Source of the DNA: an uncultured Bacteroidota bacterium
GTDB lineage: Bacteria > Bacteroidota > Bacteroidia > Flavobacteriales > TMED113
Assembly (NCBI GenBank): GCA_902520385.1
Contig: CABYOB010000005.1
Coordinates: forward strand, 1 to 33,778
Length of the DNA stretch: 33,778 bases
Direction: 5' to 3'
Shown in pieces: positions 3,809 to 30,389 of this stretch. The notes under the pieces are model-generated. The model did no database searches, was not told the DNA's origin, and worked only from the letters and a program-made list of their open reading frames with translations. The position numbers and the translations under genes were made by a program. Every line of letters starts with the position of its first letter. Position 1 is the first letter of the stretch.

Positions 3809-4581
3809 TGTTTTTTATTGACTTTAACATATTTGATTTTATAGACATCACTCTTGTGAGCATTTTAATTTTTCAATTATATAAATTAGTCAAGGGAAGT
3901 GCAGCAATTAATATCTTTATTGGCATGGCTCTAGTTTATATAATGTGGAAAATTTTTTCAGCACTAGAAATGAGTCTTTTAAGCGAAATTTTAGGACAGT
4001 TTATCAGTGTAGGAGTCTTAGCTTTAATTATTGTTTTTCAACAAGAAATAAGACGTTTTCTAGTTTTAATTGGAAAAAATATATTTAAAAACAAAAACTT
4101 ATTTATAAAATCAAAAAGCACAGAAAACTTTTTAAATGAAGAAAATATTAATGATATATGTGGAGCTTGTCAAAATATGTCAAAAACAAAAACAGGAGCA
4201 ATAATAATTATTGAAAGAAATGACAATTTAGATCAAATTATAAAAACAGGAAGAGTCATTTCAAGTAATTTGTCTCAAATTATGATAGAAAGTGTATTCT
4301 ATAAAAACGCACCTCTTCATGACGGAGCAATCGTGATAATTAATAAAAAAATTATTGGTGCACGATGCGTATTACCTATTAGTGAGTCAAATATAATATT
4401 AACCGAAATGGGGATGAGACACAAGGCGGCTCTTGGAGTAACAGAGTTACACGATTGTATTGCTATTACTGTTTCAGAACAAAATGGAAAAATAAGTTTT
4501 TTTGAAAATGGAAAAATGCAAACCAATCTTGAAACAAAAAAGCTCAAAGATCTAATAACACTTTCCTCTTTAAAAAAATGA
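3808..4581 (+). CDS. cdaA: Diadenylate cyclase (c-di-AMP synthase), CdaA type
   Basis: CdaA makes the second messenger c-di-AMP from two ATP at the inner membrane. The protein has 257 aa: hydrophobic segments at about 8-24, 32-50 and 64-80, then a coiled linker and a DisA_N (DUF147) cyclase domain. Both signature motifs are intact: DGAIVI (172-177) and RHKAA (204-208, the RHR motif with Lys). The folP-cdaA pairing is common in Bacteroidota and in some other phyla cdaA sits near glmM, so the link to folP is lineage-typical. Translation is likely coupled at both ends (TAATG with folP, ATGA with the following gene). No phosphodiesterase for c-di-AMP is visible in the window. Confidence 0.95.
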   Translation: MFFIDFNIFDFIDITLVSILIFQLYKLVKGSAAINIFIGMALVYIMWKIFSALEMSLLSEILGQFISVGVLALIIVFQQEIRRFLVLIGKNIFKNKNLFIKSKSTENFLNEENINDICGACQNMSKTKTGAIIIIERNDNLDQIIKTGRVISSNLSQIMIESVFYKNAPLHDGAIVIINKKIIGARCVLPISESNIILTEMGMRHKAALGVTELHDCIAITVSEQNGKISFFENGKMQTNLETKKLKDLITLSSLKK

Positions 4582-6470
4582 AAAAAATTTTATTTTTTTT
4601 GAGTCTAACAATAATTATTTGTTATGTAAGTTTTGAATTGTTAAACTCAAAACAAAATATAATAGAAATAATAAACTCTAAAATTGAGACTAATTCTTCA
4701 AATAAATCATTAAAAGTTCTTTTTGCATTAGACACAGAATGCCCTCTCTCAACACAATACATAAAAAAAATTAACTCCCTGGCAGAAAAATACTCTGACA
4801 ATTTTGAATTTTTAATTTTTTTTCCTGGACCCTACTACTCAAATGAAGAAGTAGAAAAATTTATTGAAAAAAATAATATAAAAATTAAATTTTTAATTGA
4901 TAATGACTTAATGATTACAAAATCTCTTAAAGCATCTGTTGTTCCAGAGTCATTTTTAATCAATATCCATTCTAAAATAATATACCAAGGATTAATTGAT
5001 AATTGGGTTAGTGAATTAGGAAGAACAAGGCAATACACAAATAAAAACTACTTAGAAGATGCCATGAAACTATCCTTAAAAGGGGTGAAACCTTTAATAA
5101 AAAAAACTAAAGCAATTGGCTGTTTAATAGAAAAGGATTTTACAAAAAAAACTAAATCTGATTCCTCAGTAAATGCCATGGAAATAATATTTGAAAAGTG
5201 TGCCAGCTGTCACTATAATGGAGGAGCAGCTCCATTTCCTTTAACTTCATACGAAGATATTGACAAAAGAAAAAAAATGATTTATCATGTTATAAGTAGT
5301 AATTATATGCCTCCATGGCCAGCAGATCCAAATTATTCAAATTTTTTAGGTGAAAAAACTCTAACTAAAAAAGAAAAGAAAATTATTCACAACTGGATTA
5401 AAAACAAAAAAAAGTTAGAATATTCAGAAAAAGAAAAAATTATATTTAAAAGCAACAAAGAAAAACCTGATTTAGTTGTTAAAATGGAAAATGAATATAA
5501 GATAAAAGGTAATAATAAAGATAAATTTTTAATGATGAAATTTCCTTTTGAATTACCTTATGATACATTTATTAAATCAATAAAATTTATCCCTGGAAAT
5601 AATCAAATTGTTCATCATGTAAATGCACATCTCATTAGTTACAATCATAAGAAAAAGAATATTTTTAATGGAGATAGAATAGTTGATACTGAATTATTTT
5701 CTGATTCAATTTGTTTTGAAAAATTAGATTTATTTAACGATGACAGAACAGTGCCTAATTTAAGTAGATCTGTTTCAAATTATTTACCAGGTTCTGCCCA
5801 AGGTAGCTACCCTAAAGGAATTGGAGTAATTAAAGCAAAGAGAAAAAATGTTATCCTAGTTAATGATTTTCACTACGGCCCATCTAATATAGACACAACT
5901 GACAATTCATATTTTGAAATTTATTTTTCAGACACCCCACCAAAAAGAAATCTAGAAGAAATTACATTAGGCACCCTTGGTTTAAAAGAAAATTATTATT
6001 CGCATGACACCACATTTTATTGCACTCAAAAAATATCCCCAGAACTAATTGTAAAACCTAATGAAAAAATAACATGTACTACTAAAGCGAAAATAGTAAA
6101 AGACATTTCAATATTAACCATAAATCCTCATATGCATTTACTTGGAAAATCATTTAAATCATATGTAATCACAGCTGAAAAAGATACCATTCCTTTGATT
6201 AAAATTGATGACTGGAATTTTAGATGGCAATATTTTTACACTTTTGAAAAGATGATTAAAATCCCAAAAAACTCTGAAATTATTATAGAAGCTACATTTG
6301 ATAATACAAACGAAAATTTAGATAACCCATTTGACCCACCCAAATTAATTACAGAAAAAATTGACTGGAATGGAAAAGGAAGTATGAAAACATCAGATGA
6401 AATGATGCAATTTATTATTACATACTTGCCATACAAAAAAAATGATGAAAAAATTAGTTTAAAACCTTAG
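4578..6470 (+). CDS. Redoxin - cytochrome c - copper type II monooxygenase-like fusion protein
   Basis: A 630-aa exported protein with an N-terminal membrane helix or signal (about 3-22). Domain 1 (45-180) is a redoxin/thioredoxin fold with a single active-site-type cysteine in ECPLSTQY (Cys55, no second Cys in a CxxC). Domain 2 (200-280) is a mono-haem cytochrome c: CASCH at 208-212 and MPPWPAD at 244-250 as the likely axial Met. Domain 3 (300-620) resembles peptidylglycine alpha-hydroxylating monooxygenase (PHM): VHHVNAH (His346, His347), FHYGP (His432), NPHMHLLGKSF (His518, His520) and TSDEMMQ (Met609) match the positions of the two copper sites. The ATG overlaps the cdaA stop by 4 bases. 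An envelope or periplasmic oxidase role is inferred; the substrate is unknown. Similar redoxin/cytochrome c/monooxygenase combinations occur in other aquatic bacteria, to my knowledge without a defined role. Confidence 0.85.
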   Translation: MKKILFFLSLTIIICYVSFELLNSKQNIIEIINSKIETNSSNKSLKVLFALDTECPLSTQYIKKINSLAEKYSDNFEFLIFFPGPYYSNEEVEKFIEKNNIKIKFLIDNDLMITKSLKASVVPESFLINIHSKIIYQGLIDNWVSELGRTRQYTNKNYLEDAMKLSLKGVKPLIKKTKAIGCLIEKDFTKKTKSDSSVNAMEIIFEKCASCHYNGGAAPFPLTSYEDIDKRKKMIYHVISSNYMPPWPADPNYSNFLGEKTLTKKEKKIIHNWIKNKKKLEYSEKEKIIFKSNKEKPDLVVKMENEYKIKGNNKDKFLMMKFPFELPYDTFIKSIKFIPGNNQIVHHVNAHLISYNHKKKNIFNGDRIVDTELFSDSICFEKLDLFNDDRTVPNLSRSVSNYLPGSAQGSYPKGIGVIKAKRKNVILVNDFHYGPSNIDTTDNSYFEIYFSDTPPKRNLEEITLGTLGLKENYYSHDTTFYCTQKISPELIVKPNEKITCTTKAKIVKDISILTINPHMHLLGKSFKSYVITAEKDTIPLIKIDDWNFRWQYFYTFEKMIKIPKNSEIIIEATFDNTNENLDNPFDPPKLITEKIDWNGKGSMKTSDEMMQFIITYLPYKKNDEKISLKP

Positions 6471-20162: not shown

Positions 20163-21094
20163 TACATTTTATTTAAGAAAATTTCCGCCAACATGCATCT
20201 AGCCCCTCCCCCTCCGTATTTTTCAATAGTGTCTAACGGTGAATGTACAATTTTACAAAAGCTATTTATAATTTTTTTCTGATTTTTTGAAAAACAATTA
20301 AAAGCCCTAGAACTCATTATCAGAATATTTTCATCTTTATTATTTTTAACCTCCAAAACATTACCACAAAAATTATTTACTTGATCTAAAGAAATTGTAA
20401 TAATTTTTTTTTTTGTCCTATCTAGAGAGTCAATAATTTTATTTTGTTCATTCTTGCTAGCAACAGACTCAAAACACACTATAGCAAAATTTTCACAAAT
20501 ACTCATCATTACATTAGTGTGGTAAATAACTTTTCTATGATTATAATTCAGGTAAGCAGTAAATACTATAGGTTGGAAATTTATTTTTTTACAAAATTCA
20601 TTTAATAAATCTTGACATGTTCTTTCAGATAACGCAGCATAAACTATTTGATTCACTCTATCTAAAACCATACTACCAGTTCCCTCTAAAAAATTATTAT
20701 TTTTTTCATTGAATTCAGCATCATTAAAAATCTGAGAAAAAGAAAAATTTTCCTTTAAAAAAGCAATTATATCACTTCTTCTTTCAAGCCTTCTATTTTT
20801 TGCAAACATAGAGTGAATAAAAATCTTACCATCTTGATATGTTGAAATCCAATTATTTGGAAAAATAGAATCAGGGGTAATAGGATAAGGAGTATCATTA
20901 AATAAAAAGACATTTATGTTGTTGTTTTTTAAAACATTGAAAAAATTATCGAATTCCACCAAAGCTTTTTGATTTATACTATAATTATTATTACCCAAAC
21001 CATCCCCCTGAAAATAATTATTTATTGAAGTCTCTGGGTTGCCGAAAAATTTATAAGGCCTTATAAGAAATAAATTTGATGTAGACTGCTTCAT
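20162..21094 (-). CDS. ctlX: CtlX-type hydrolase (arginine deiminase-related, citrulline utilization)
   Basis: The start chosen is the ATG at 21094 (MKQSTSNLFLIRPYKF), which overlaps the upstream TGA as ATGA; the ORF-track start at 21121 adds 9 unrelated residues. This gives about 310 aa of the amidinotransferase/deiminase fold. Visible elements: IFPNNWISTYQDGKI, KNRRLERR, LEGTGSMVLDR (catalytic Glu region), YHTNVMMSI (catalytic His) and GGGGARCMLAE with the nucleophilic Cys near the C-terminus. The family, named CtlX, is linked to citrulline/arginine metabolism, and all catalytic positions appear intact. The exact substrate is inferred from the family name. Confidence 0.88.
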   Translation of the reverse strand: MKQSTSNLFLIRPYKFFGNPETSINNYFQGDGLGNNNYSINQKALVEFDNFFNVLKNNNINVFLFNDTPYPITPDSIFPNNWISTYQDGKIFIHSMFAKNRRLERRSDIIAFLKENFSFSQIFNDAEFNEKNNNFLEGTGSMVLDRVNQIVYAALSERTCQDLLNEFCKKINFQPIVFTAYLNYNHRKVIYHTNVMMSICENFAIVCFESVASKNEQNKIIDSLDRTKKKIITISLDQVNNFCGNVLEVKNNKDENILIMSSRAFNCFSKNQKKIINSFCKIVHSPLDTIEKYGGGGARCMLAEIFLNKM

Positions 21095-22038
21095 ATTCTT
21101 TTTAAAGGTAAAGTTGAACATCTAAAAAGACCTCCCATTTTAGCAATACTAGAATATTCAACTTCTTCTACTATATATCCTAATTTTAACAAAATATTAT
21201 TTAAAATTTTAAAATTTTTATTTGAGACCACTATATTTTTAGAGATGGAAAACAGATTTGTATTCAAATGAACCATTTGCTCATTAGATATCTCTATTAT
21301 ATTTTTCTTTGAGAATAATTTATTAACTAAATCAATGTCTTTTCTTTTACTAAATGAATCGTAACAAATCAAAATATGACCAAGACCTAATGTCTGAAAA
21401 CAACAATCTAAATGTAAACAATTATCTTCAATAGAAGTGTCTGATTTTTTTAATTCAAAACCATATACCTTTTTGTTAGGAAAAAACTTTTTAAAAAAAT
21501 CAACAGACTTCTTATTTGTTCTTCCAACTTTCTTTGTGGCAAAATCATAATCACTACAAATACCAATAAAAATATAATCATTATATATAATTACGTCACC
21601 ACCCTCTACTCTGATATCATTTGGTAAAAAGACAACTTTTGATTTATCAAAATAAGATAAAATATGATTAATCCCTTCTATTTCCCTTTCTCTATCTTTT
21701 ATGATATTTGATACAAAAAAAACATCATCAATTACAAAACCAATATCTCTTGTAAAAACTTGATTAATTGATTTCAAGTTTTTTGGCCTTAAAACATCTA
21801 CATCATACTTTTCTAAAATTTTTTTAAATGCATTTAATTCTGAAATCAATTGATCCTCCTCAGGAAATGTATTTTGTAATACATGTTTCCTTGTTTGAGG
21901 ATCATAAACATCTTGAATTAAAGGAATTCCTCCTAAATCATTGGCGATTCCTAAAATAACCTTATTTAAGGTGTTAAATTCATTTTTAATAGAAAATTTC
22001 AAAACATAAAATAATTTAAAAGACTCAAAGTTATACAA
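21091..22038 (-). CDS. Amidinotransferase / dimethylarginine dimethylaminohydrolase family protein
   Basis: A ~300-aa member of the guanidino-group modifying superfamily (arginine deiminase, DDAH, amidinotransferase). Seen: FTRDIGFVIDD, RVEGGDVII (substrate Asp/Glu), CLHLDCCFQTLG (catalytic His) and GGLFRCSTLPL with the nucleophilic Cys at the C-terminus. No in-frame ATG exists near the front. The track begins at a TTG (22038), while a second TTG at 22002 (read as MKFSIKNEFNTL) would fit the expected family N-terminus better. The stop overlaps the ctlX ATG. Arginine or methylarginine hydrolysis is likely, but which product forms is not determined. Confidence 0.82.
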   Translation of the reverse strand: MYNFESFKLFYVLKFSIKNEFNTLNKVILGIANDLGGIPLIQDVYDPQTRKHVLQNTFPEEDQLISELNAFKKILEKYDVDVLRPKNLKSINQVFTRDIGFVIDDVFFVSNIIKDREREIEGINHILSYFDKSKVVFLPNDIRVEGGDVIIYNDYIFIGICSDYDFATKKVGRTNKKSVDFFKKFFPNKKVYGFELKKSDTSIEDNCLHLDCCFQTLGLGHILICYDSFSKRKDIDLVNKLFSKKNIIEISNEQMVHLNTNLFSISKNIVVSNKNFKILNNILLKLGYIVEEVEYSSIAKMGGLFRCSTLPLKRI

Positions 22039-25130: not shown

Positions 25131-25779
25131 AATAATATTAATTTTTATTTTCTCTACTTTATTTTCTTATTCTCAAAAAAAAGAAATAAAAAAAGAAAAA
25201 AAAATTGTATTGGATTATCTTAATTCTAAATTTTGTGAAAATCCATTTTCAATACAAACAAAAAAAGAATTTGATTATGAAATGAAAATTATAAAAAAAA
25301 AAAATCAACTTTATTTTGAGTTTGTACAAAAAAATTATAAAAATGAAATAAAAAGTAATGGTGAAATTATATTAAAACTAGATCATAAACATGAAGAATT
25401 AGAAATATATTCTTTAACAGAAAAAGAAAAAGAAAAATGTTTTTTTTATTCAAAATTTATTAAAGAATTTCATATTGAGGATATTAAAAAAAATAAACAA
25501 AACAACGGATACTTCGTCTCTGGAAAAATTGAAAAATTAAATTTAAATATAGAGCTTGAAATAAAATATCCTTTAAACAATAAAGAGGATAAAGTTTTAT
25601 ATAAAATATCAAGTGAAAAAAACAAAAAACTTAATGATAATGAAAAAAAACAAGAAATTATCTTTTACGAAAAAGATGAATTTGAAAATAATTTTAAAGA
25701 ACTTTTCTTATACGAAAACTTTAACATTAAATCATTAAAAGAAAAATATAATACTTGGGAAATTATTGATTTTCGTTAG
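25123..25779 (+). CDS. Secreted Lys-rich protein in the usual lolA position
   Basis: A 218-aa protein starting inside ftsK (8-base overlap) with a signal peptide (MFKIILIFIFSTLFSYS). The mature part is extremely rich in Lys and Glu, with alternating polar/nonpolar stretches that could form a beta sheet (GEIILKLDHKHEELEIY). In Flavobacteriia the gene after ftsK is commonly a LolA-like outer-membrane lipoprotein carrier. I see no LolA motif clear enough to prove it, so the assignment rests on position. The end overlaps the convergent PBP-like gene by 17 bases. Confidence 0.7.
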   Translation: MFKIILIFIFSTLFSYSQKKEIKKEKKIVLDYLNSKFCENPFSIQTKKEFDYEMKIIKKKNQLYFEFVQKNYKNEIKSNGEIILKLDHKHEELEIYSLTEKEKEKCFFYSKFIKEFHIEDIKKNKQNNGYFVSGKIEKLNLNIELEIKYPLNNKEDKVLYKISSEKNKKLNDNEKKQEIIFYEKDEFENNFKELFLYENFNIKSLKEKYNTWEIIDFR

Positions 25780-27235
25780 TTTCTAACATTTCAACTATAC
25801 TATGCTTTTCATATTTCCACAATTTAAATGCTTCATTTCTATATATATTATTTTCTTTTAATACAAAATTATAATAAGTTCCAAAAAGACTTTTTTCTGA
25901 AGAAATTAAATTACCAAAAAAATTATTTAAAAAATACAGCCCACATTTATAACCCTGGTAAACATACTTGTTTTGCGGATGAATTGAAAAATATTCATAA
26001 AAAGATTTTATAAAATCACTTTTATCAAAAAAAGGTTTACTTTCACTAAAAAAACGCACATTCAAATCATATAATTCTGAGTGAGGAATTAATGAAAAAT
26101 CTAAAATATCATCACTGCAAAAAACAACCATAGAACCATCTTTTAAAGCATGAAGCCTAGAAATAATATCAGAAACAAAAACAGGATCATTGGATGGTAT
26201 GAAAAAAATACCAGAAAGTGAGTTGATTTCCTCATCAGTCATGAATTCAGAAATAGTTGGTGTGTCAATTTCATAATAAACCACATTACTTTTCCACTCT
26301 TTCAAATGATCAGAAATTATTTTCCTTTCTTTTTTTTCATCTTCTTTTAAAAAAATAGAAACACTATTGGAACTCAACTCTTTAATAAATCTATTATAGA
26401 TATAATTAGCAGTGTATGATATTTTTTCAACTCTATCAGATTCAAAAAAAAATATTTTATTTTGATTATAGTCCTTATTTATTGAGTTAGATTGAAGAGG
26501 AGAAACTAAGGTGATATTTGAATTTGTAATTTTATTGGATATAAAATCAAAATTTTCTTGATATAACGGTCCGAAAATAATGTCCATTGAATTTAAATCA
26601 TTATAAGTTAACATGTTTTTTAAAGTATCAATACTATGATAAGTATCAAAAACATTAAGGTTTAATTTTAGATTAGTGTCATCAAAAAACTCATTAAAAG
26701 AAAATAATAAACCAGAGTAAAAATCTAAAGAAATTCTAGATTCTCTATGAAAGTTTGTTTTTTTTATTTTATCGAAAGGGTAGCTAGATATAATTGAGTC
26801 AGTTGAATTTGAAAAAAAAGGAAGTAGAATAGAAATATTAACAATTGTATCTTTTCTTTCGGAAATTAAAGTATCATTCAATGAATTTAAAATTAAATCA
26901 GGAACAACAGAAAAGTCATTTAAATCTTCCTTAAGAAATAAAGAATCTATGTTTGAAATTGTATCGCCTACAAGATTATTAACAAACAGATTCTGATCTT
27001 TAATGAAAATTTTAATTTCTAATACTTCAGGACAATCACTTAGAAACTTACATTTTTTTAATTCTGGATTTAATTTAATAATTTTTCTTTTTGATATTCC
27101 ATATTTTAATTTTAAACTATGATATGTGTCATCATCTGAAATATAATGAATAATAAAATCACTACTAGTTTTAATTTCTTGTTTTTGAGAAAAAATAAAG
27201 AATGGAAAAGTTAAAAATAATAAGAAATGTTTCAT
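25763..27235 (-). CDS. LysM domain plus periplasmic-binding-like (PBP1) exported protein
   Basis: A 490-aa protein. Signal peptide MKHFLLFLTFPFFIFSQ; a LysM-like module at about 28-72 (HYISDDDTYHSLKLKYGISKRKIIKLNPEL); a linker; then a type 1 periplasmic-binding-like fold from about residue 128 to the end (NISILLPFF, LDFYSGLLFSFNEF, MDIIFGPLY, TLVSPLQSNS, GYKCGLYFLNNFFG). Proteins of this architecture follow guaA in many flavobacteria; despite the ABC substrate-binding label they are not linked to a transporter. A cell-wall-associated role is inferred. It begins 9 bases after guaA. Confidence 0.85.
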   Translation of the reverse strand: MKHFLLFLTFPFFIFSQKQEIKTSSDFIIHYISDDDTYHSLKLKYGISKRKIIKLNPELKKCKFLSDCPEVLEIKIFIKDQNLFVNNLVGDTISNIDSLFLKEDLNDFSVVPDLILNSLNDTLISERKDTIVNISILLPFFSNSTDSIISSYPFDKIKKTNFHRESRISLDFYSGLLFSFNEFFDDTNLKLNLNVFDTYHSIDTLKNMLTYNDLNSMDIIFGPLYQENFDFISNKITNSNITLVSPLQSNSINKDYNQNKIFFFESDRVEKISYTANYIYNRFIKELSSNSVSIFLKEDEKKERKIISDHLKEWKSNVVYYEIDTPTISEFMTDEEINSLSGIFFIPSNDPVFVSDIISRLHALKDGSMVVFCSDDILDFSLIPHSELYDLNVRFFSESKPFFDKSDFIKSFYEYFSIHPQNKYVYQGYKCGLYFLNNFFGNLISSEKSLFGTYYNFVLKENNIYRNEAFKLWKYEKHSIVEMLETNENQ

Positions 27236-28790: not shown

Positions 28791-30389
28791 TTAAAATCCT
28801 TTTAAAATAATATAACCACTTTCTAAACAATTTAATTTTTTAATAAGTATGTCAAAAAACTTATCCCCATGTTTTAAATAATAATAAAAAAAAGAGCTAC
28901 TTCTTTCTTGAATATTATTTTTGAAGTAAAAACTAGAATGTATTTGTGATAAAATTTGGACATAAGAAGTATGGTCCTTTTTTTGATATTTAATTATTTT
29001 CTTTTCTAATTTTTGTAAATCTTTTTCAATTTTTTTACAAATAGACAAAGAATGTATGTTTAAAGAATTATCAATTTTTTTTGTTTTTTTATCTATAGAA
29101 TTGAACAAAGAACTAAACTCATTCAATTCTTGAATTAAATTAATTTTTGATTTTTTATAAAGTGATCTTGATAAAAATTGTTCAATCGGAAAAAACAGCT
29201 CAATTGATTCTACTTTATTTTTTTTAAGAAATTTATAATGATCATAATTAACATTTAACACAAATGACCTCATAACTAAAATTGGAAATTCTAATTTTAA
29301 TTTAGAAAATAGAGATTTTAATTGCAACCAATAAGAAATTTCCGTTGGGCCACCAACATAAGCAATATTTGGTAATATTTTTTCTTGATATAAAGTTCTT
29401 AAAATAACATTTGGACTAAATCTTTCAGGAAAACCCTCTATTTCATCTAATATTTGCTTTTGAGACCATTCTTTTTGATTATTAACTAATTGGTATTTTT
29501 TATTTTTTTTTACAATTCTTACTCTATTATTTCCTTTTAAATAAAACAAATTTAACTCTCTAGGTTTAACAATTGTTTTATAGTCTTTAGATAATTCTTT
29601 TGTTTGACTAGAGACTAAATCAAATGAAGTTTGATCTTTAATCTCTAACTTTAAAATAGATTTAAAATGTTTTTTTAAAACAGAATCATTTGCATCAAGA
29701 ATTAAAAGACCATGCTTTGCAAAAAAAAATGTCAATAAAGACCTAATACCTTTTGACAAAGTATCATTTTTTGTATATGTTTCAATCAATAATTTTTTCA
29801 AATCCTTTTTGTAAGGATAATCTTCAAAAGAACTAAAAATATCATCAATAAATAAATCTATATTTTTTGTACTAATAGAACCAACGTCAGAATTATCATG
29901 TTTTTTACTCCAATCATGTTGTCTAGAAAATAAATTTAAACTCTTTATTTCTTCAAAATCATGATCCTCGGAGGCTAGCCAAAAAATAGGTACAATATTT
30001 TTTTTTGAAACCTTAGAAATCCTAGACGATAGATTTATAATATTTATAATTTTATAAATTAAGAAAAGTGGATTAGCAAATAAACATATTTGATGACCAG
30101 TTGTAATTGTATATGTTTTATCAGATAATAAATTTTCTATATTATTATTAATCCTATCAAGATTAGAATTTAAAAAATTTGTATTCTGATATTGCTTTTT
30201 AAATACTGAAACTAAATCAAATCTTACATCCCTAGATAATTTTCTTTTTTTTATTTGTTTAATAATAGTCTCTTCTGAAGGGAATGAAGAAATAAATGGT
30301 TTTAATTTTTTTTCCTTAGAATTGTAATCATTAACAAGTTTAGAGAAAAAATTAATTTTTTTAAAATCTATTATTTCTTTTAAAATCAT
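28791..30389 (-). CDS. bshC: Bacillithiol biosynthesis cysteine-adding enzyme BshC
   Basis: BshC adds cysteine to glucosaminyl-malate to complete bacillithiol, a low-molecular-weight thiol used by many Bacteroidota in place of glutathione. The protein has 532 aa, typical length. Seen: ITTGHQICLFANPLFLIYKI (nucleotide-like fold), VPIFWLASEDHDFEEI (signature), GILLF-type core as HGLLILDAND, FSPNVILRTLYQE and IAYVGGPTEISYWLQLK. A long C-terminal coiled coil (about 400-480) mediates dimers. bshA and bshB are elsewhere. The start shares a base with the ftsY stop. Confidence 0.95.
   Translation of the reverse strand: MILKEIIDFKKINFFSKLVNDYNSKEKKLKPFISSFPSEETIIKQIKKRKLSRDVRFDLVSVFKKQYQNTNFLNSNLDRINNNIENLLSDKTYTITTGHQICLFANPLFLIYKIINIINLSSRISKVSKKNIVPIFWLASEDHDFEEIKSLNLFSRQHDWSKKHDNSDVGSISTKNIDLFIDDIFSSFEDYPYKKDLKKLLIETYTKNDTLSKGIRSLLTFFFAKHGLLILDANDSVLKKHFKSILKLEIKDQTSFDLVSSQTKELSKDYKTIVKPRELNLFYLKGNNRVRIVKKNKKYQLVNNQKEWSQKQILDEIEGFPERFSPNVILRTLYQEKILPNIAYVGGPTEISYWLQLKSLFSKLKLEFPILVMRSFVLNVNYDHYKFLKKNKVESIELFFPIEQFLSRSLYKKSKINLIQELNEFSSLFNSIDKKTKKIDNSLNIHSLSICKKIEKDLQKLEKKIIKYQKKDHTSYVQILSQIHSSFYFKNNIQERSSSFFYYYLKHGDKFFDILIKKLNCLESGYIILKGF

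Follow-up and report, generated by a model that had tools for sequence, protein, structure and literature searches.

What is a single bacterial polypeptide doing with a redoxin, a c-type cytochrome and a copper core resembling that of the animal PHM/DBH-type enzymes, which make peptide hormones and noradrenaline, and from where would such a protein draw its electrons? The question is raised by a gene found in a stretch of 33,778 nucleotides (the window) from an uncultured member of the Flavobacteriales, the source genome of which is a 0.78-Mb assembly that is 63% complete. The nearest public records to the window are Flavobacteriales MAGs, which are taken to be marine. Our reading, which we hold to be fairly probable, is that the gene encodes a copper monooxygenase of the PHM/DBH superfamily that is exported, tethered to the membrane and coupled to haem, and that operates by the mechanism set out below.

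The start of the ORF overlaps the stop of an upstream cdaA-like gene by 4 bases. A sequence-only reading of the window had reported this ORF together with a series of motifs: C55 (CPLS), C208-H212 (CASCH), M244 (MPPWP), H346-H347, H432 (HYG), H518/H520 (HMH) and M609 (SDEM). All are real and lie exactly where they had been placed. The features of the gene are:

4578..6470, + strand: redoxin / cytochrome c / PHM-like copper monooxygenase gene, 630 aa, ATG start
4578..4649, + strand: N-terminal hydrophobic signal/anchor, aa 1-24; charged then hydrophobic N-terminus, predicted helix 2-24
4689..5141, + strand: redoxin (thioredoxin-fold) domain, aa 38-188; C55 at 4740-4742, C182 at 5121-5123; Pfam Redoxin
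5160..5417, + strand: cytochrome c domain, aa 195-280; CASCH 208-212 at 5199-5213, probable axial M244 at 5307-5309
5448..6467, + strand: PHM/DBH-like dicopper core, aa 291-630; Pfam Cu2_monoox_C, AF2 fold, DBH profile match
5613..5618, + strand: CuH ligands H346-H347; invariant (37/37), align with HH of DBH
5871..5873, + strand: CuH ligand H432; invariant (37/37), aligns with HY of DBH
6129..6137, + strand: CuM ligands H518 and H520 (HMHLLGK); invariant (37/37), cf. rat PHM H242-T-H244-HLGK
6402..6404, + strand: CuM ligand M609 (SDEM); invariant (37/37), cf. rat PHM S311-D-E-M314

Pfam recognizes the Redoxin family at aa 46-140 (27.5 bits, cut-off 26.6) and Cu2_monoox_C (PF03712) at aa 497-580 (33.2 bits, cut-off 23). 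PF01082 was not matched by the window protein and was matched by only 4 of 40 relatives. An AlphaFold2 model of the full-length protein, built with 40 relatives, has a pLDDT of 89.8 and a pTM of 0.84.

The dicopper core

When the single protein was searched against the PDB only the redoxin domain was matched; the copper core was found with a profile of the family, which detected human DBH (E 7e-8) with the HH, HY and HxH motifs in register. These motifs are the copper ligands of DBH. With Foldseek the top PDB matches of the full-length model are DBH (4zel, 3e-14) and rat PHM (3mll, TM 0.59). A model of the core only (pLDDT 90.0) returned PHM or DBH structures as its first 30 PDB matches, with E values from 3e-13 to 1.2e-8, and the next, unrelated match stands at 3.6e-4. 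H346, H347, H432, H518, H520 and M609 are present in every one of the 37 aligned homologues, the identity of which falls as low as 24-30%. Because of this fold, the profile match and the ligand conservation, the assignment of the C-terminal 340 residues as a homologue of the PHM/DBH copper monooxygenases is strongly supported. The sequence-only reading had suggested a PHM-like core with complete copper ligands, and structure prediction as the way to check it; both the predicted fold and the invariance of the ligands bear this out.

The protein thus carries the tandem jelly-roll PHM fold and the full CuH (HH, H) and CuM (HxH, M) ligand sets, M609 being placed by the match of SDEM to rat PHM. 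Given the fold match and the register of the motifs, the six ligands are predicted to converge on two copper sites. With PHM (the PHM domain of PAM; PF01082/PF03712; 1phm, 3mll) the core shares the two jelly rolls, CuH HH...H, CuM HxH...M, SDEM and HxHxLGK, but the identity is about 14% and the window protein has in addition a fused haem c and a redoxin. Superposition of the core on PHM gives a TM of about 0.6 and an rmsd of about 6 Å, figures which suggest that the angle between the predicted jelly rolls differs from that of PHM. DBH (4zel) is the best sequence-profile match and its core is likewise preceded by an extra N-terminal domain; in this ascorbate-using animal enzyme, however, it is a DOMON domain that occupies the place of the cytochrome c. 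By analogy with PHM, O2 and a C-H substrate would react at CuM (H518, H520, M609), and CuH (H346, H347, H432) would provide the second electron.

The redoxin domain and its linkage

The redoxin had been described as a single-Cys protein, a description that is incorrect or, at best, incomplete. The domain has a thioredoxin fold and, in addition to the conserved C55, a second conserved Cys, C182, which lies within an IGC motif and occurs in 16 of 17 redoxins (the remaining one cannot be read at that position); many relatives possess CPLC (CxxC) where the window protein has CPLS. C55 and C182 would form a putative Cys pair in the window protein, the part being taken by CxxC in many relatives. By Foldseek the nearest folds are the Thermus thermophilus thioredoxin-like protein (2ywo/2cvb), followed by ResA/StoA. 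These have the thioredoxin fold and the CP motif in common with the window redoxin, and 2cvb also has a C-terminal IGC, but all of them are stand-alone proteins, and the window redoxin has CPLS rather than CxxC. A peroxiredoxin was considered and rejected, as the PxxxTxxC motif is missing (the window has ALDTECP).

Among 58 distinct PHM-domain proteins the redoxin is fused in three and encoded by an adjacent gene in 24; in 20 of the latter that gene immediately precedes its partner on the same strand, at distances of -25 to +33 bases. This partner is not obligatory, as roughly half of the cytochrome-PHM proteins found lack a redoxin in the vicinity. The 630-aa fusion is also encoded by another MAG of the window's genus (L004 / G001), with 69% identity to the window protein. 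The three-domain polypeptide of the sequence-only reading is real, but it is lineage-specific: fusion is confined to the window's genus and one remote protein (L052), and in close relatives outside the genus the redoxin is the product of a separate neighbouring gene. In the tree the fused pair nests among redoxin-adjacent relatives (support 100/98) and L052 is placed separately, on a very long branch. The redoxin would accordingly have been a neighbouring gene originally, and would have become fused in the window's genus.

As to function, a thiol oxidoreductase of thioredoxin fold is the most likely identity of the domain, which probably acts as a dedicated maturation partner that holds the cysteines of CxxCH reduced for attachment of the haem. 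Since no cysteine of the copper core is conserved across relatives, those of CxxCH are the only conserved thiols for it to serve; this, together with the predicted fold, favours a role in haem attachment. It is also possible, though we think it somewhat unlikely, that the redoxin attends the copper core instead, as a redox or copper-delivery partner in the manner of a Sco-like chaperone, or by removing peroxide after uncoupled turnover. Thioredoxin-fold proteins such as Sco do deliver copper, and the redoxin does travel with the cytochrome-PHM gene, whether fused or adjacent. Against this, the active-site motif has only one Cys in the window protein and many relatives (CPLS/CPIA), and there is no Sco-type Pfam match, the best folds being those named above.

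The haem c domain and the direction of electron flow

Cytochrome c Pfam matches in the window protein are weak and fall below the cut-off; the domain was assigned because of its invariant CxxCH...MPP motifs and its predicted helices (195-207, 225-240 and 264-275), which are of class I type. CxxCH and M244 (in MPPW) are found in 21 of 21 homologues, and a model of the domain matches 57 of 58 relatives.

Since the window query itself contains a cytochrome, Cu2_monoox_C was used alone to survey 297 Bacteroidota genomes. Matches were obtained in 26 of them, and all 28 complete proteins (27 plus that of the window, one further protein that begins at a contig end having been left out) carry a haem c motif, CxxCH or CX4CH, N-terminal to the copper core. 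At least two types of cytochrome occur in this position, CxxCH...MPP[WYF] and CX4CH...MPLG. The latter, with a CATSGCH-type motif and MPLG in place of MPPW, characterizes a second PHM-like group (L103, L107, L108, L112, L117, L118, L121, L129). In the Bacteroidota sample it is thus the rule that a PHM-like core is coupled to haem c, and for this reason donation of electrons from haem to copper is the most economical reading. The class I-like haem c (C208/C211/H212, axial M244) would pass electrons singly to the copper sites, standing in for the ascorbate of the animal enzymes. That haem replaces ascorbate had already been proposed for the window protein; the comparative part of the proposal has held, and the direction of the electrons is what we infer. 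To judge from the sequences, then, the electrons for copper chemistry in these bacteria probably come from haem in place of vitamin C. Genes for cytochrome c assembly are present in four members of the family; no PF01578 assembly gene was found in the source genome, which is 63% complete.

In the opposite scheme the copper core would be a centre of oxidase or dehydrogenase-like type, from which the haem c accepts electrons on their way to a respiratory chain. Fused c-type cytochromes often serve periplasmic dehydrogenases in this capacity, and the universal presence of haem indicates electron transfer but not its direction. Yet the full PHM-type ligand sets for CuH and CuM, the CuM Met included, are invariant, which fits activation of O2 with a need for reductant, and the known members of the PHM/DBH group consume electrons; we regard reverse flow as distinctly unlikely. 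Donation from haem to copper also has a parallel in the copper nitrite reductases with a tethered haem c, in which the haem feeds the copper enzyme, though their cupredoxin fold and their reaction are unrelated.

Substrate, gene neighbourhoods and export

As the protein has the fold of PHM and its copper ligands, one may ask whether it is a genuine peptidylglycine hydroxylase that produces amidated peptides, a bacterial PAM. Arg240, Asn316 and Tyr318 of PHM anchor the peptide carboxylate. After checking the residue letters and numbering of rat PHM, in which R240 lies two residues before H242, we find N516, Q611 and I613 at the corresponding positions of the window protein, and Arg was never encountered at the first of these in 37 homologues or in the census set. 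NHL-repeat (PAL-type) matches were likewise absent from seven genomes, a search which short repeats may escape and which includes the 63% complete source genome. With no counterpart of Arg240 in any of these proteins and no PAL-type lyase in these genomes, the C-terminal glycine of a peptide is an unlikely substrate; peptide amidation was rejected, and we rate a bacterial PAM as very improbable.

Still less credible is the idea that two genes were joined by decay or by the assembly: a lost stop or a shift of frame would suffice to fuse the two genes seen in relatives, but two separate MAGs share the fusion at 69% identity, every ligand is intact and the fused pair is firmly placed in the tree.

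The neighbours of the gene in the window (folP, cdaA-like, pyrD and DUF1599) are housekeeping genes and give no hint of the substrate; in the window's family the gene belongs to a block of such genes that is itself conserved (folP ... pyrD). More remote members of the same class have the cytochrome-PHM gene, in many cases together with a redoxin, between SusC/SusD genes and that for an ASPIC/UnbV FG-GAP protein; at some of these loci genes for a ROK regulator and for a PAP2 protein are also close by. The set SusC - SusD - (redoxin) - cytochrome-PHM - ASPIC/UnbV FG-GAP recurs in distant Bacteroidota families (L093, L095, L092, L094, L097), not every gene being present at every locus. Such an arrangement suggests that the enzymes of these loci oxidise a nutrient that is imported or bound at the surface; because the window's family has the housekeeping block instead, the hint may not carry over to the window protein.

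Judged by eye, the N-termini of the group are mostly signal peptides, lipoboxes or anchors; relatives with a separate redoxin begin with signal peptides or lipoboxes, and a type IX secretion tail is found at the C-terminus of many longer relatives. On these features the group appears to be exported. A tblastn search against plasmids gave no match.

Two genomes of the window's family also encode cytochrome-PHM paralogues of ~775 aa with a Kunitz/BPTI domain (PF00014) near the C-terminus, which is unusual in a bacterial protein:

L065:400-2721, - strand: Kunitz/BPTI-bearing cytochrome-PHM paralogue (PF00014 E 1.8e-8)
L067:1435-3762, + strand: Kunitz/BPTI-bearing cytochrome-PHM paralogue (PF00014 E 5.3e-9)

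In the first of these the domain is followed by sequence resembling a type IX sorting tail.

Elsewhere in the window, the minus strand carries a match to the eukaryotic-type dimethylarginine dimethylaminohydrolase family at 20165-21121 (PF19420, E 1.3e-96) and the bacillithiol biosynthesis enzyme BshC at 28794-30389, which suggests a bacillithiol thiol pool. Two further ORFs on this strand have no Pfam match, one of 407 aa at 1163-2383, conserved in nine loci including the window, and one of 490 aa at 25766-27235.

None of the domains of the protein is new in kind, and the core belongs to the PHM/DBH superfamily. Among the titles and abstracts that our literature search returned, no paper dealt with this domain architecture, and to that extent the haem-coupled, redoxin-linked form appears uncharacterised. 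More tentatively, we propose that the PHM-type copper monooxygenases of the Bacteroidota, and perhaps beyond, could be self-sufficient, with a fused haem c in the place of ascorbate; they would be exported, some to the surface by type IX secretion and some being encoded within SusC/SusD operons, and would oxidise a nutrient or glycan rather than peptides. How the second electron passes between the distant coppers of PHM and DBH, and how these enzymes are re-reduced, has long been debated. In the bacterial protein the reductant would be covalently attached and spectroscopically visible, so that each electron could be followed. A superfamily described mostly in animals would also gain a bacterial branch, placed in a setting open to experiment, that of SusC/SusD operons and surface secretion; the haem-coupled form may represent a different, and possibly older, way to power this chemistry.
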